DNA from: Rhodanobacter sp. DHB23
GTDB lineage: Bacteria > Pseudomonadota > Gammaproteobacteria > Xanthomonadales > Rhodanobacteraceae
DNA: 45,301 nucleotides
Reading direction: 5' to 3'
Assembly: GCF_014842975.1 (NCBI RefSeq)
Contig: NZ_JACYXK010000011.1
Location: 1-45,301 of the forward strand
A program made the translations under genes and the position numbers. Positions 10,952 through 15,602 of the stretch are shown here, piece after piece. The number at the start of each line of letters is the position of its first letter. Within the stretch, counting starts at the first letter, position 1. The notes beneath the pieces are model-generated. The model saw only the letters and a list, made by a program, of their open reading frames with translations. It was not told where the DNA came from and did not search any database.

Positions 10952-11019
10952 ATGAAACGCCATGGGCCCAACACACTGAAGGTCACCGCCTGGAACGAGC
11001 GTGCGAACCCGCGCGCCAC

Positions 11020-11062
11020 GCTTGCTCCCGCTCCACGCCGGGGAGAGGGTTGGGGGGAGGGG
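11020..11062. repeat. GC-rich hairpin repeat at the 5' end of flgI (copy A)
   Basis: A pyrimidine-rich arm (GCTCCCGC) faces a purine-rich arm (GCCGGGGAGAGGGTTGGGG), and the tail ends in GGGGAGGGG. It matches, with differences, the repeat at 40406-40447. A second perfect 7-bp hairpin, CCCCCGC-TCCG-GCGGGGG, lies at 11132-11149. This repeat type is widespread between genes of many proteobacteria (general knowledge). Here it sits inside the open frame that precedes the flgI signal peptide. Confidence 0.7.
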
Positions 11063-12265
11063 ATGCGGTCGCGGGAAGCTGCCCTGGCCTTCATCAAGCG
11101 TTGCCTGTCCAAGCCCCTCCGCCAGCCGCGTCCCCCGCTCCGGCGGGGGGCGGGCGTCAAGGGCGCCGTGCTGGCGCTTGCCGTCGTGTTGCTCGCACTG
11201 CCTGTCGTTCCCGCCCGCGCGGACAAGATCCGCGACCTCGCCTCGGTCGGCGGCGTGCGCACCAACCAGCTGATCGGCTACGGCCTGGTGGTGGGCCTGG
11301 ACGGCTCCGGCGACCAGACCACGCAGACGCCGTTCACCACGCAGAGCGTGGAGAACATGCTGCAGCAGTTCGGCGTCAACATCCCGGCGGGCGTGACGGC
11401 ACCGCAGCTGAAGAATGCGGCGGCGGTGACCATCACCGCCGAGCTGCCGCCGTTCGCCAAGCCCGGCCAGGCCATCGATGTCACCGTGGCCTCGATCGGC
11501 AACGCCAAGAGCATCCGCGGCGGCGAGCTGCTGATGTCGCCGCTGCGCGGCGCCGACGGCAACGTCTATGCGATCGCGCAGGGTAGCGTGGTGGTGGGCG
11601 GCATCACCGCGAAGGGCAAGAGCGGCAGCAGCGTGGAGAAGAACATCTCCGCCAGCGGACGCATCCCCGGCGGCGCCACGGTGGAGCGCAGCGTGCCCTC
11701 CGCGTTCGCGGGCACGGACGACCTGCGGCTGAACCTCAACACGCCGGACTTCACCACCGTCTCGCGCATCGTGAACACGATCAACCGCACCTACGGTTCG
11801 GGCACCGCGCGCGCAGTGGACGGCGGCACGGTGGACGTGCGCGTGCCGCAGGACCCGACCCAGAAGGTGGCATGGCTGGGCACCATCCAGAACCTGGACG
11901 TAACCCCGGGCGACCCGCCCGCACGGGTGGTGGTGAACTCGCGCACCGGCACCGTGGTGATCGGTTCGGACGTGCGCGTCTCCGCGGCGGCGGTGGCGCA
12001 CGGTTCCATCCAGGTCACCATCAGCGAGCAGCCGCAGGTCAGCCAGCCGGGGGCCTTCAGCAAGGGTCAGACCGTGGTGGTTCCCTCCAGCAACGTGCAG
12101 GTCAGCGAGGACGGCGGCCACATGTTCAAGTTCGGCCCGGGCGTGAGCCTGGACACCATCGTGCGCGCGGTGAACCAGGTGGGCGCCTCGCCCAGCGACC
12201 TGATCTCCATCCTGCAGGCGCTGAAGCAGGCTGGCGCGCTGCATGCGGACTTGGTGGTCATCTGA
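11063..12265 (+). CDS. flgI: FlgI, P-ring protein
   Basis: A periplasmic P-ring subunit. The mature part begins at [20 protein letters not shown] and continues with [20 protein letters not shown], as in all FlgI proteins, and runs to the typical C-terminus [18 protein letters not shown]. The start is uncertain. The hydrophobic signal core ([19 protein letters not shown]) begins near 11155, but no ATG sits immediately before it. The ATG at 11063 has a strong GGGGAGGGG site and gives 400 residues with an unusually long Arg-rich n-region. The ATG at 10952, directly after the flgH stop, gives 437. A hairpin repeat occupies the region between these two starts. Confidence 0.93.
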
Positions 12266-12296
12266 GAGCCTGCCCATGGTTTCCAAGCATCCCGTG

Positions 12297-12394
12297 TTGT
12301 CATCGAGTGGCCGCCAGGTGGTAGGGCGTGGCGCCGGCCTGACTGGCGATCAGGCCAAGCCGCGCGCTGCCGCATGGCGGCCATTCGATGACAA
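12297..12394. repeat. inner 98-bp palindromic block
   Basis: Arms of 20 bp (12297-12316, TTGTCATCGAGTGGCCGCCA, and 12375-12394) pair at 19 of 20 positions. Between them is a smaller perfect stem, GGCCTGA-N7-TCAGGCC. As RNA it would fold into a long branched hairpin. Unlike the block that follows, it has no second copy in this window. Confidence 0.75.
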
Positions 12395-12505
12395 CCCTGC
12401 GGGCCGGGTCTGTTTGCCCGCATACCAGCGTCATCGCTCGGTCGTGGACGGACGTCCACTTCCTCCCTTTTCCTTGGTCTGCGCGCAAACAGCTCCCGGC
12501 GCGGG
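12392..12505. repeat. palindromic module, copy 1 (upstream of flgJ)
   Basis: This 114-bp module recurs at 13528-13641 with about 8 differences and no gaps. It has imperfect terminal inverted repeats of about 25 bp (12403-12427 and 12475-12500, sharing GCCGGG, CTGTTTGC and ACCA) and a central perfect stem GTGGACG-GA-CGTCCAC at 12444-12459. The terminal repeats and size are MITE-like. Confidence 0.8.
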
Positions 12506-12535
12506 ACGCTTGGAAGCCATGGGCAGGCTCTGGCC

Positions 12536-13516
12536 ATGAGCGACGCCGCGCTGCCCGCCAACACCTCGCTGAGCACCTGGACCGACCTGTCCGGGTTCAA
12601 CCAGCTGCGCGCGCAGGCGCAGAGCGACAGCAAGGCGGTGTTGCCGGCAGTGGCCAAGCAGTTCGAGGCCCTGTTCACCCAGATGATGCTGAAGTCCATG
12701 CGCGAGGCCAGCGACAGCCTCGGCAGCGCGCTGGGCGACAGTGACGCCGGCAAGGCCTACCGCGACCTGTTCGACCAGCAGCTCTCGGTGAGCCTGTCGC
12801 AGAGCGGCAAGGGGCTGGGCATCGCGCAGATGCTGGTTCACCAACTGGGTGGCCAGGGCGCGTCGGCAACGGGTGCCACGGGCGGCGCAGGCGGTTCGGC
12901 GGACGATCCCGACGGCATCGGCGACCCCACCAAGCTGCCGGCCAATGCCGACCAGTTCCAGCGTCGCCTCGCCAACGTGGTGGAGGCCGGGCGCGAGCTG
13001 GGCCGCAGCGCGATGAAATGGCTGCCGCAGGACGCGCAGGAGTTCGTGCGCGCGCTGGCGCCCTATGCCGAGGCGGCGGCGCAGAAGCTGGGCGTGTCGG
13101 TGCGTACCGTGCTGGCCCAGGCCGCGCTGGAGACCCAATGGGGCAAGCACATGCCGCGCAGCTCCGACGGCTCCACCAGCTTCAACCTGTTCGGCATGAA
13201 GGCGGGCGGCAGCTGGGACGGCCAGAAGGTCAGCGTGCCCACGCTGGAGTACGAGGATGGCGTGGCGGTGCGCCGGCATGCCCAGTTCCGCGCCTACAAC
13301 TCGCCGGCGCAGTCGTTCCAGGACTACGCCACGCTGATCGCCTCCGATCCGCGTTACGCCGCGGCGAAGGGCCACGGCGACGACGTGCGGGGCTTCGCCA
13401 ACGCGTTGGCGCGCGGCGGCTATGCCACCGACCCCGGCTACGCCGAAAAGATCAGCGCCATCGCCCACAGTTCGCAGATGAACGAAGCGCTGGCAGCCTT
13501 GAGGGCCGGGCCATGA
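12536..13516 (+). CDS. flgJ: FlgJ, rod scaffold and peptidoglycan hydrolase
   Basis: A 326-residue two-domain protein. Residues 1-105 are the rod-capping domain (AKQFEALFTQMMLKSMREAS). After a Gly/Ala linker (about 106-125), residues 150-320 are a GH73 glucosaminidase with the catalytic glutamate E199 in LAQAALETQWGK and the family motif SFNLFGMKAG. It cuts a hole in the murein so the rod can cross. The ribosome site is weak. The gene is flanked on both sides by the same inverted-repeat module, and its last codons and stop are part of the left arm of the downstream element. Confidence 0.95.
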   Translation: MSDAALPANTSLSTWTDLSGFNQLRAQAQSDSKAVLPAVAKQFEALFTQMMLKSMREASDSLGSALGDSDAGKAYRDLFDQQLSVSLSQSGKGLGIAQMLVHQLGGQGASATGATGGAGGSADDPDGIGDPTKLPANADQFQRRLANVVEAGRELGRSAMKWLPQDAQEFVRALAPYAEAAAQKLGVSVRTVLAQAALETQWGKHMPRSSDGSTSFNLFGMKAGGSWDGQKVSVPTLEYEDGVAVRRHAQFRAYNSPAQSFQDYATLIASDPRYAAAKGHGDDVRGFANALARGGYATDPGYAEKISAIAHSSQMNEALAALRAGP

Positions 13517-13656
13517 CCACGGCAAGGCAACCCTTCGGGCCGGGTCTGCTTGCCCGCATGCCGGCGTCATCGCTCGGTCGTGGACGGACGTCCACTTCCT
13601 CCTTCTTCCTTGGCCTGCGTGCAAACAGCTCCCGGCGCGGGTCATGGCCCGGCCCT
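13502..13656. repeat. second inverted-repeat element, between flgJ and flgK
   Basis: Perfect 16-bp inverted arms, AGGGCCGGGCCATGAC at 13502-13517 and its complement at 13641-13656, enclose the second copy of the palindromic module. The left arm contains the flgJ stop codon (13514-13516). The right arm ends on the first base of the flgK FliA promoter -35 box. Its outer arms differ in sequence from those of the element upstream of flgJ. Confidence 0.8.
13528..13641. repeat. palindromic module, copy 2 (downstream of flgJ)
   Basis: Direct repeat of 12392-12505 in the same orientation, about 93% identical. It keeps the terminal inverted repeats (13539-13563 and 13611-13636) and the central stem GTGGACG-GA-CGTCCAC at 13580-13595. 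It lacks the 98-bp palindromic block that precedes copy 1. Confidence 0.8.
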
Positions 13657-13682
13657 AAAGATTCCGGCCAGCCTGCCGATCC
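13656..13682 (+). promoter_or_regulatory. FliA (sigma-28) promoter of flgK-flgL
   Basis: Reads TAAAGATT-N11-GCCGATCC, an almost perfect FliA promoter with exact spacing. It is 28 bases upstream of the flgK ATG. It makes flgKL a late transcription unit, separate from the sigma-54 hook operon, and can carry the overlapping aminotransferase gene as well. Confidence 0.88.
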
Positions 13683-13709
13683 AGTAGTCGAATTCCGGAG
13701 GTCTCGGCC

Positions 13710-15602
13710 ATGTCCAGCCTGTTAAACATCGGTGTCACCGGGCTCAATGCGGCCCAGCTCGCCTTGCAGGTCACCGGCAACAACATTGCCAATGCCAGCA
13801 CCACGGGCTACAGCGAGCAGAGCGTCCAGCAGGTGGACATGGTGGGCCAGAACAACGGCCGTTACACCATGGGCACCGGCGTGGACGTGATCGGCGTGCA
13901 GCGCGCCTACAGCCAGTACCTCACACAGGCGCTGTGGAGCAGCAACAGCTCGATGCAGGGCGCCACCACCACCACCAACCTCACCACCGCGCTGAACGGC
14001 CTGTTGCAGAACAGCGGCAACCTGCAGAGCGCGATGGACAGTTTCTACGGCGGCTTCAACGACGTGGCCAATTCGCCGAGCGACCTGTCCCCGCGGCAGG
14101 CCCTGCTGGGCGACGCCTCCACGCTCACCGCCGCCTTCAACACCTTTGGCCAGCAGCTCGACCAGCAGCGCCAGCAGGTCAACACGCAGATTTCCAGCAC
14201 CGTCAGCGACATCAACACGCTGGTGCAGCAGATCGCGACGCTCAATACCAGCATCAGCCAGGCCGGCAGCAGCCAGCCCAACTCGCTGCTCGACCAGCGC
14301 GACCAGCTGGTCAACCAGCTGGCGGGCGATACCGGCATCTCCGTCGCCGCGCAGCCCGACGGCACGCTGAGCATCTACAGCACATCGGGCCAGGTGATGG
14401 TGAGCGGCAGCTATTCCTACGGTTTCCAGGTGGGCAGCAGCCCCTACGACACCAGCACCACCGACGTGCTCAACACCAGCGGCACCGACATCACCAACAG
14501 CCTTTCCGGCGGCACGCTGGGCGCGCTGTTGTCGTACCGCACCAACACGCTCGATGCGGCGCAGAACCAGCTGGGGCGCACCGCGCTGGCGGTGGCGCAG
14601 AGCGTCAACAAGCAGCAGGCGAACGGCCTGACCCTGACCGGCGCCAAGGGCCAGCCGATCTTCGTGGTGCCGTATCCCAGCGTGGCCGCGATGAAGGCCA
14701 ACCTGGGCACGGCTTCGGTCAGCGCCAGCGTGAGCGACATTTCTTCGCTCACCAACGACAACTACATCCTCACCTACACCGGCAGCAACGCCTCGCCCTC
14801 GGTCAACGGCTGGTCGCTCGCCACCACCAGCGGCAGTTCGGTGGCGATGACCGCCAACGCGGACGGCACGCTGTCCGCCAACGGCCTCACCTTCTCGGTG
14901 TCCGGCAATGCGCAGGTCGGCGACAGCTTCCAGATCCTGCCCACCCAGAACGTGGCGTCCGGCATCTCGGTGGCCACCAGCGACCCCAACGCCATCGCGG
15001 CGGCGGCGGCACTGGTCGGCACGCCCGCCAGCGCCAATACCGGCGGCGCCACGGTGAGTTCGGTGAACGTGTCGGACAGCACCAACGCCAACCTGTTCTC
15101 GGGCGCCACGGTGACGTTCGGCGCGGGCAACAGCTACACCGTCACCGACGGCGCGGGCAACACCAGCACGGGGACCTACACCAGCGGCACGCCGATCCAG
15201 TTCGACGGCTGGAGCCTCAACCTCAGCGGCACCCCGGCCAGCGGCGACAGCTTCGCCGTGGCCGAGAACAGCAGCGGCCTGAACGACAACTCCAACGCAC
15301 TGACCATGGCCGGGCTGGGCGACGTCGGCGTGCTCGACGGCGGCAAGACCACCACGGTGGCGGCGTATGCCAACCTGACCAACCAGATCGGCCTGGCGGG
15401 CAGCATGGCGTCCAGCAACCTCACCACCCAGACCGGCCTCTACAACCAGGCGACCAGCGCGCAGCAGAGCCTGGCGGGCGTCAACCTGGACCAGGAGGCG
15501 GCCAACCTCATCAAGTACCAGCAGGCCTACCAGGCTTCCGCGCAGGTGATCTCCACCTCGCAGACCCTGTTTTCCAGCCTCATCACCGCCATCCAGGCCT
15601 AA
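13710..15602 (+). CDS. flgK: FlgK, hook-filament junction protein 1
   Basis: A 630-residue protein. Its N-terminus is LNIGVTGLNAAQLALQVTGN followed by NNIANASTTGYSEQSVQQVD; its C-terminus is LDQEAANLIKYQQAYQASAQ and VISTSQTLFSSLI, both diagnostic for FlgK. The middle third contains two Ser/Thr/Gly-rich beta modules, each ending in a G(D/N)SF motif near 14930 and 15250. It connects the hook to FlgL and the filament and is escorted by FlgN. A CGGAGG ribosome site precedes the ATG. Its own FliA promoter lies directly upstream. Confidence 0.96.
   Translation: MSSLLNIGVTGLNAAQLALQVTGNNIANASTTGYSEQSVQQVDMVGQNNGRYTMGTGVDVIGVQRAYSQYLTQALWSSNSSMQGATTTTNLTTALNGLLQNSGNLQSAMDSFYGGFNDVANSPSDLSPRQALLGDASTLTAAFNTFGQQLDQQRQQVNTQISSTVSDINTLVQQIATLNTSISQAGSSQPNSLLDQRDQLVNQLAGDTGISVAAQPDGTLSIYSTSGQVMVSGSYSYGFQVGSSPYDTSTTDVLNTSGTDITNSLSGGTLGALLSYRTNTLDAAQNQLGRTALAVAQSVNKQQANGLTLTGAKGQPIFVVPYPSVAAMKANLGTASVSASVSDISSLTNDNYILTYTGSNASPSVNGWSLATTSGSSVAMTANADGTLSANGLTFSVSGNAQVGDSFQILPTQNVASGISVATSDPNAIAAAAALVGTPASANTGGATVSSVNVSDSTNANLFSGATVTFGAGNSYTVTDGAGNTSTGTYTSGTPIQFDGWSLNLSGTPASGDSFAVAENSSGLNDNSNALTMAGLGDVGVLDGGKTTTVAAYANLTNQIGLAGSMASSNLTTQTGLYNQATSAQQSLAGVNLDQEAANLIKYQQAYQASAQVISTSQTLFSSLITAIQA

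Follow-up and report, generated by a model that had tools for sequence, protein, structure and literature searches.

The flgI-flgJ spacer

The window (the whole stretch of Rhodanobacter sp. DHB23 DNA that was analysed, 45,301 nt) encodes flgI, flgJ, and flgK, names that are backed by NCBIfam. The flgI gene ends at 12265 and the flgJ ATG lies at 12536, and the gap between them holds a nested inverted repeat, as described in the earlier note and confirmed by both an inverted-repeat search and RNA folding. The outer arms (12265–12294 and 12502–12531; 30 nt, with a spacer of 207 nt) are 93% complementary (28/30), so the previous count of 27/29 was essentially right; the left arm starts, as had been claimed, on the flgI stop codon (at the last base of the TGA, 12265), and the right arm ends at 12531, leaving the reported gap of 4 bases before the flgJ ATG. 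The first inner palindrome (12296–12332 and 12359–12395; 37 nt) scored 84% in the inverted-repeat search, and across its outer 20 bp we counted by eye the same 19/20 matches as before. The second inner block of that description (approximately 12403–12417 and 12485–12500) is paired in the RNA fold, although it was absent from the inverted-repeat output. Folding, which the note had put forward as a check, gave −199.5 kcal/mol for 12260–12540, compared with −122.4 ± 5.3 for 200 dinucleotide shuffles of the same segment (z −14.6; 0/200 equally low).

Comparison within the repeat family described below places the borders of the element at 12266–12530, with target copies TGA (12263–12265) on the left and TGG (12531–12533, imperfect) on the right. 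The features of the locus are:

12263–12265, + strand: flgI stop codon TGA, the left TNA target copy (TNA rule from 94 copies)
12266–12530, + strand: the element proper, almost certainly a MITE, GAGCC...GGCTC, 265 bp; the RNA-like strand is +
12265–12295, + strand: P1 left arm (outer stem); terminal 8 bp conserved in the family, followed by a hypervariable yet paired segment
12296–12332, + strand: P2 left arm; hypervariable, covarying sequence on the outside and a conserved inner stretch that includes G-U pairs
12333–12358, + strand: P2 apical hairpin region
12359–12395, + strand: P2 right arm
12403–12417, + strand: P3 left arm; other sequence in Pseudoxanthomonas and Luteimonas copies, with pairing kept
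12418–12484, + strand: P3 large loop, well conserved, including a C/T-rich tract
12444–12459, + strand: small hairpin GTGGAC-GGAC-GTCCAC within the P3 loop
12485–12500, + strand: P3 right arm
12501–12531, + strand: P1 right arm
12531–12533, + strand: right flank TGG, the imperfect right TNA copy
13503–13655, + strand: shortened second copy with its own complementary arms and without most of P2; flanks TGA 13500–13502 and TAA 13656–13658

As called, the flgI open reading frame includes approximately 90 additional N-terminal residues (window 10952–11230), one stretch of which resembles a translated repeat; the true start may be further downstream, because FlgI homology begins only at residue 92–93.

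Copies in the genome, the genus, and the order

The earlier note proposed a search for the spacer sequence in related genomes, and the sequence proved to be dispersed. In the DHB23 genome itself, 24 places were extracted by sequence search, including the shortened copy in the flgJ-flgK gap; full-length matches other than the query are 79–89% identical, partial matches also occur, and further short derivatives beyond these places share the element ends. One of the derivatives (L183, near 1557) is very short, consisting of hardly more than both arms. Matches at E ≤ 1e-10 were obtained in 11/15 same-genus genomes (DHB23 included), with 2 to at least 40 per genome when the best 40 places at most were scored in each. 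Four genomes (G001, G003, G006, and G007) had no match at this threshold, and G003 gave one weak match in a later model search. A 22-mer from the P3 loop was found, without mismatch, in 40 stretches in Rhodanobacter, Fulvimonas, Luteimonas, and Pseudoxanthomonas genomes. A P3 covariance model built on 24 sequences, with the best 13 candidates at most scored per genome, reached E ≤ 1e-4 in 53 of the 299 genomes from the order; these 53 represent 19/85 genera and, going by their labels, three families (f1 and f2, plus f8 with two weak matches). Alignment A1 was drawn from 33 dereplicated P3 sequences, with 10 left out (loop insertions, wrong strand, or shifted) and L193 added.

From relatives, 80 regions were taken, and 95 distinct full-length copies were aligned, including those of DHB23; most were chosen as best matches to the window copy, so the sample favours well-kept structure. 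Ends were located in 94 of the 95, and L020 was left out where ends were needed.

The plasmid and phage collections contained no match to the element, and no larger, gene-carrying parent was found among 288 sequences, where no copy had a gene-sized gap between its halves (one gap was 90 nt). Rfam covariance models detected nothing at E ≤ 1 in window positions 11000–15000. When four other loci (L218, L192, L092, and L132) were scanned, the L192 copy gave two miRNA-type matches far below the gathering score (E 0.01 and 0.07), and the remaining matches fell outside the element. The same Luteimonas contig (L192, 706–782, minus strand) carries an SAH riboswitch (RF01057) above the gathering score. 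Among the literature matches listed, none describes this element family, and the main text of PMC2267715 names neither Xanthomonas nor Xylella. Thus, the previous statement that the repeat matches no nameable family holds for Rfam and for the literature matches listed, but the element has the general character of a bacterial MITE; it apparently represents an undescribed family, related to mini-transposons already known from bacteria and not a novel kind of machinery.

Two further observations concern individual copies. A hairpin module (GAGTCCATCCATGGACTC...CCCCGCGTGC, at most 3 mismatches) has six matches in the DHB23 genome (L017, L019, L021, L022, L023, and L024), all within element copies, where they lie either at the junction of the blocks or in the loop of P3; a variant stem bearing a similar loop is also present in L021. 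L003 (G000) and L115 (G008) share a same-site insertion immediately before a gene starting MAAKKRGLGRGLDALLG, which we take to be ParB-like.

Target sites, empty junctions, and a second copy

With the element read as GAGCC...GGCTC, the 3-bp flanks are identical in 35/94 copies with located ends, compared with a chance expectation of 11.8 when these flanks are re-paired randomly, and all 35 pairs are TNA (TGA 13, TCA 10, TTA 7, and TAA 5). The base before the left TNA is most commonly C (52/94), and the base after the right TNA is G in 44/94 and C in 33. Read on one strand or the other, TNA always spells a stop codon. For the window copy the target duplication is imperfect, because the left TNA is the TGA of flgI but the right flank is TGG.

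FlgJ is present in 11/15 genus genomes, DHB23 included. The flgI-flgJ insert is absent in all 10 same-genus relatives that have both genes in one locus, with the aligned ends at most 29 nt apart and overlapping in one; at four minus-strand loci (L136, L137, L138, and L142) tblastn coordinates give gaps of 4–16 nt. In the nearest relative, G008 (FlgJ 94% identical), the junction consists of the stop codon TAG, 12 nt, and ATG. Empty junctions, which the earlier note had suggested looking for, are therefore the rule, and the spacer is multi-copy rather than a unique sequence conserved in all relatives, the outcome that the note had regarded as evidence against a mobile origin. We infer that the window copy inserted only once the DHB23 lineage had separated from these relatives.

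The second copy (13503–13655) supplies the final codons and stop of flgJ. It is common to DHB23 and G008; the other 9/10 relatives with flgJ and flgK have a gap of 40–74 nt and no copy. The C-terminus of FlgJ has been rewritten by this copy, to ALRAGP in DHB23 and ALRAGI in G008, where several others have an ALKNPA-like end. Between the two genomes the arms of the copy differ at several positions on both sides, with complementarity largely kept.

Element ends and candidate transposases

The transposase domain PF13340 was identified in 2/15 genomes of the genus set, with one match above the cut-off (L132 of G012). At this locus, an 852-bp interval is bounded by a perfect 21-bp inverted repeat (TAAGAGCCTGTTCAAAGTCTC), the inverted repeat of the IS reading GAGCCTGTTCAAAGTCTC, and encloses two reading frames that match IS5-family NF033580 and PF13340/PF01609; this IS may belong to the IS1031-like subgroup. 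Its 11 terminal bases, GAGCCTGTTCA, are those most often found at the ends of family members, and the ends of the window copy (GAGCCTGCCCA) are identical to them at 9/11 positions, with 2 differences. Around the IS (L132, 1361–2600), its own left and right parts are repeated at the borders, as if it had inserted in or beside another copy of itself.

The DHB23 assembly (29 contigs) encodes no PF13340 transposase, and its one PF01609 match lacks a pair of element-family ends; the partner transposase may have been lost from this genome or may be unassembled. Across the order, PF13340 occurs in 37/299 genomes. A convincing inverted repeat (score ≥13) was present at 7/30 transposase loci examined, L132 included, and the repeats vary: the ends of the IS at L265 (GGGGCTGTCATCAATTG) resemble those of Pseudoxanthomonas copies of the element (GGGCCTGTCATCAAC). 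Within DHB23, copy L016 combines the same core with different ends (GGGTGTGTCC). Together, the ends suggest that one core may have been mobilised by several IS5-type transposases.

These findings place the element almost certainly among the bacterial MITEs: it is short, dispersed, multi-copy, and without a transposase gene (24 places), it has terminal inverted repeats, and its sites are empty in relatives at both junctions (10/10 and 9/10). The TNA duplication holds at the family level (35/94), and the flanks of the window copy (TGA/TGG) are not identical. Of the three options offered in the earlier note, a mobile element is thus strongly supported, by the dispersed copies, terminal repeats, TNA flanks, empty sites, and IS5-type ends. 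Movement in trans by an IS5-group transposase is very probable from the sequence comparison, given that the commonest 11-bp ends are shared with the two-frame IS of G012 and that the TNA flanks are alike; the comparison with IS5-family IS covers the ends, the element itself has no transposase gene, and no PF13340 partner occurs in the DHB23 genome.

Fold and covariation

Alignment A2 comprised 9 genus copies more than 14% apart and 5 Pseudoxanthomonas and Luteimonas copies, with the partial L191 left out. The consensus on 14 diverse copies has 98 pairs, 49 of which have changes on both sides with pairing kept. Paired cells amount to 94.7%, compared with 81.0% after shuffling and 36–41% with the partners slid, and double-change cells to 206 compared with 67.8 after shuffling, a count that is flattered by the derivation of the structure from the same alignment. 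With this leaning, compensatory changes exceed the controls, as for a structured ncRNA. The P3 stem has been swapped on both sides in Pseudoxanthomonas and Luteimonas (CTGTTTGC/GCAAACAG vs CTTGCGCG/CGCGCAAG and CTACGCGC/GCGCGTAG), with most of the loop retained. Mean minor-base frequency differs between regions: it is 0.36 at P2 36–43 and 0.25 across the variable segment of P1, but 0.07 over P3 and the remainder of P2 and 0.013 at the eight terminal bp. The loops are conserved at long range. Pairing in copies with an intact target duplication (0.974, n = 35) is not significantly different from that in the others (0.960, n = 59; p 0.18). The known CsrA/RsmA binding motif was compared with the GTGGAC-GGAC-GTCCAC hairpin, and such a site was rejected, as the loop GGA is missing from 4/14 copies of A2.

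Base-pair steps were counted on a tree of the 95 copies using the window-copy fold, averaged over random tie-breaks, with P1 serving as a control for mutational asymmetry. In the inner P2 stem, 63 steps lead from WC to G-U and 13 from WC to A-C, compared with 40 and 49 in the P1 variable segment of the same copies (Fisher p 4e-7, on rounded counts and for a helix pair chosen after seeing the table). The remaining helices (G-U/A-C) are the P1 inner end (19/11), outer P2 (30/22), apical P2 (9/8), the P3 stem (19/10), the upper part of P3 (10/16, the reverse), and the small hairpin (12/10). The strand signal therefore comes mainly from the inner P2 stem, because the other helices are weak, nil, or (one) reverse. 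The sense strand has the more stable fold in 85/95 copies. A role for single-stranded DNA of that strand would be expected to produce the same signal.

For standing copies, five same-site pairs between genomes could be compared: 35 single changes break pairs and 30 keep them, and 8 double changes are compensatory and 2 are not. Similarity within the element is below that of the flanks in 3/5 pairs (e.g., 0.81 vs 0.84–0.89) and above it in 2/5. The single changes look like drift, a judgement made without a computed expectation. Standing copies therefore do not appear strongly constrained.

A strand-specific RNA fold under selection is, on these signs, reasonably likely. A competing explanation is that the repeat is a plain MITE with no need of an RNA function, in which covariation is a by-product of DNA processes, namely template switching or gene conversion between the arms; quasipalindrome correction keeps palindromic arms alike. 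The P1 variable segment, with approximately 94 WC-to-WC double events and no strand bias, speaks for it, and P1 covariation may fit arm-to-arm DNA copying as well as it fits selection. Among 20 copy pairs whose cores share an identity of 0.97 or more, compensated double changes separate 4, and in 2 of these (both involving L058) they form adjacent runs in the P1 arms, a pattern that also favours copying, as do the nearly free decay in situ and the several helices without strand bias. It is countered by the G-U excess of the inner P2 stem relative to P1, by the long-range conservation of the loops, and by the sense bias described below, and we consider it doubtful.

Orientation and gene context

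Gene context was assigned from reading frames that GC3 indicated in flanks of 390 nt, and the 151 copies represent 118 distinct insertion sites. Between co-directional genes, the element lies in the sense orientation at 55 sites and antisense at 19 (p 3e-5); the remaining sites are divergent (14), convergent (11), or undetermined (19). The sense-to-antisense counts are 52 to 12 without Fulvimonas (G012), which itself has 3 sense and 6 antisense, 42 to 13 for first-set sites, and 13 to 6 for sites found in the second set only (p 0.17). Copies with an intact target duplication do not differ in orientation ratio from the rest, either without G012 (9:1 vs 35:6) or with it (12:5 vs 35:8). Of the 47 sense copies, 40 have a called upstream stop codon, which ends at element base 1 in 23; in 22 of the 47, an in-frame start codon is at most 12 nt past the element end. 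Of the nine convergent first-set copies, 7 overlap or adjoin the antisense stop on the right and 2 the stop on the left; because these favour the antisense stop (small numbers), the operon bias is not readily attributed to a preference for inserting at the sense stop.

The sense bias and the close fit to upstream stops and downstream starts would also follow if hosts had recruited the element as a cis-regulatory RNA that tunes the next gene through stability, RNase III/E cleavage, attenuation, or stop-to-start coupling over a closed P1, by analogy with ERIC or NEMIS, for which excerpts of PMC2229807 provide precedent. Set against this are the absence of the flgI-flgJ insert from 10/10 relatives, the decay of copies in situ, and the lack of any sigma-70-like promoter or intrinsic-terminator-like site (GC-rich hairpin plus T run; 0 found) in 12200–12600; we hold recruitment of this kind to be rather unlikely. 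For the transcription attenuator, another of the earlier options, the missing terminator speaks against the intrinsic kind. The third, an RNA that sets flgJ dosage, is partly supported as far as RNA is concerned, by the strand-specific stem, by covariation, and by the preference for sense orientation within operons; dosage finds no support in an insert that the 10 relatives lack, and a regulatory effect on flgJ is possible.

Relation to known repeats

REP, REPIN, and BIME sequences are likewise dispersed extragenic palindromes. REPs are far shorter and are tied to RAYT tyrosine transposases, whereas the ends of the present element are of the DDE/IS5 type. ERIC, NEMIS (Correia), and RUP resemble it as small intergenic elements with highly paired transcripts (predicted for the element). 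According to excerpts of PMC2229807, ERIC, NEMIS, and RUP are approximately 100–200 bp with TA at their termini, and orientation matters for ERIC; the present element is set apart by its 265 bp, its TNA target, and its division into three domains, in which the loops are conserved and the stems are hypervariable and covary. The CIR repeats known from Caulobacter and Brucella also have two long arms and a conserved exposed motif, and are listed in the same excerpts without terminal inverted repeats and with a GANTC motif (PMC2229807); unlike them, the element is closed by P1 and has terminal inverted repeats and TNA. Its closest known kin are ERIC, NEMIS, and CIR repeats. What is unusual within the ordinary MITE class, and is supported by several signs in the compared sequences, is a covarying, partly strand-specific fold that appears to span genera of the order.

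Proposed role of the element

The element is probably a MITE of the IS5 group that is non-autonomous and has a folded RNA as its cargo. IS5-type transposases would mobilise it in trans; a TNA hit on a stop codon would duplicate the stop and leave the protein intact, and for that reason copies could survive at gene ends. A sense copy would be transcribed as part of the operon mRNA, and the fold would be selected at the level of the element: a closed, folded insert would most likely keep the operon expressible by being shielded from Rho, nucleases, and spurious starts, and copies no longer moving would drift. We regard this role in operon compatibility, taken as such, as tentative.

The fold might instead serve mobility itself, as single-stranded DNA or RNA that aids transposition or target choice. 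Its retention across hosts while single copies decay is consistent with this, as is the presence of the same core with different ends (L016 and the Pseudoxanthomonas copies); however, the TNA duplication and IS5-like ends suggest ordinary DDE transposition, which is not known to require such a fold, and a mobility role is improbable. A multi-copy, non-mobile structured RNA gene of the host can be dismissed as highly improbable: structure and loops are conserved across families as it would predict, but target duplications and empty sites contradict it, and matches per genome range from 0 to at least 40 between congeners.

Returning to the MITE with a folded RNA, we tentatively propose a mobile structured RNA of the Xanthomonadales (Lysobacterales), in which a three-domain core under strand-specific selection, present in at least two families, would use any available IS5-type ends and settle in sense in operons at stop codons, where a closed P1 may join the upstream stop to the next start so that the operon is still read. 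At the 118 distinct insertion sites, a single RNA-like fold is available as a natural series of copies that are sense, antisense, or decayed. With this series it can be tested whether the RNA folds in bacterial mini-transposons are there to promote the spread of the element, to spare the operon, or by chance through the repair of palindromes, and flgJ provides an example of a gene end rewritten by such an insertion.
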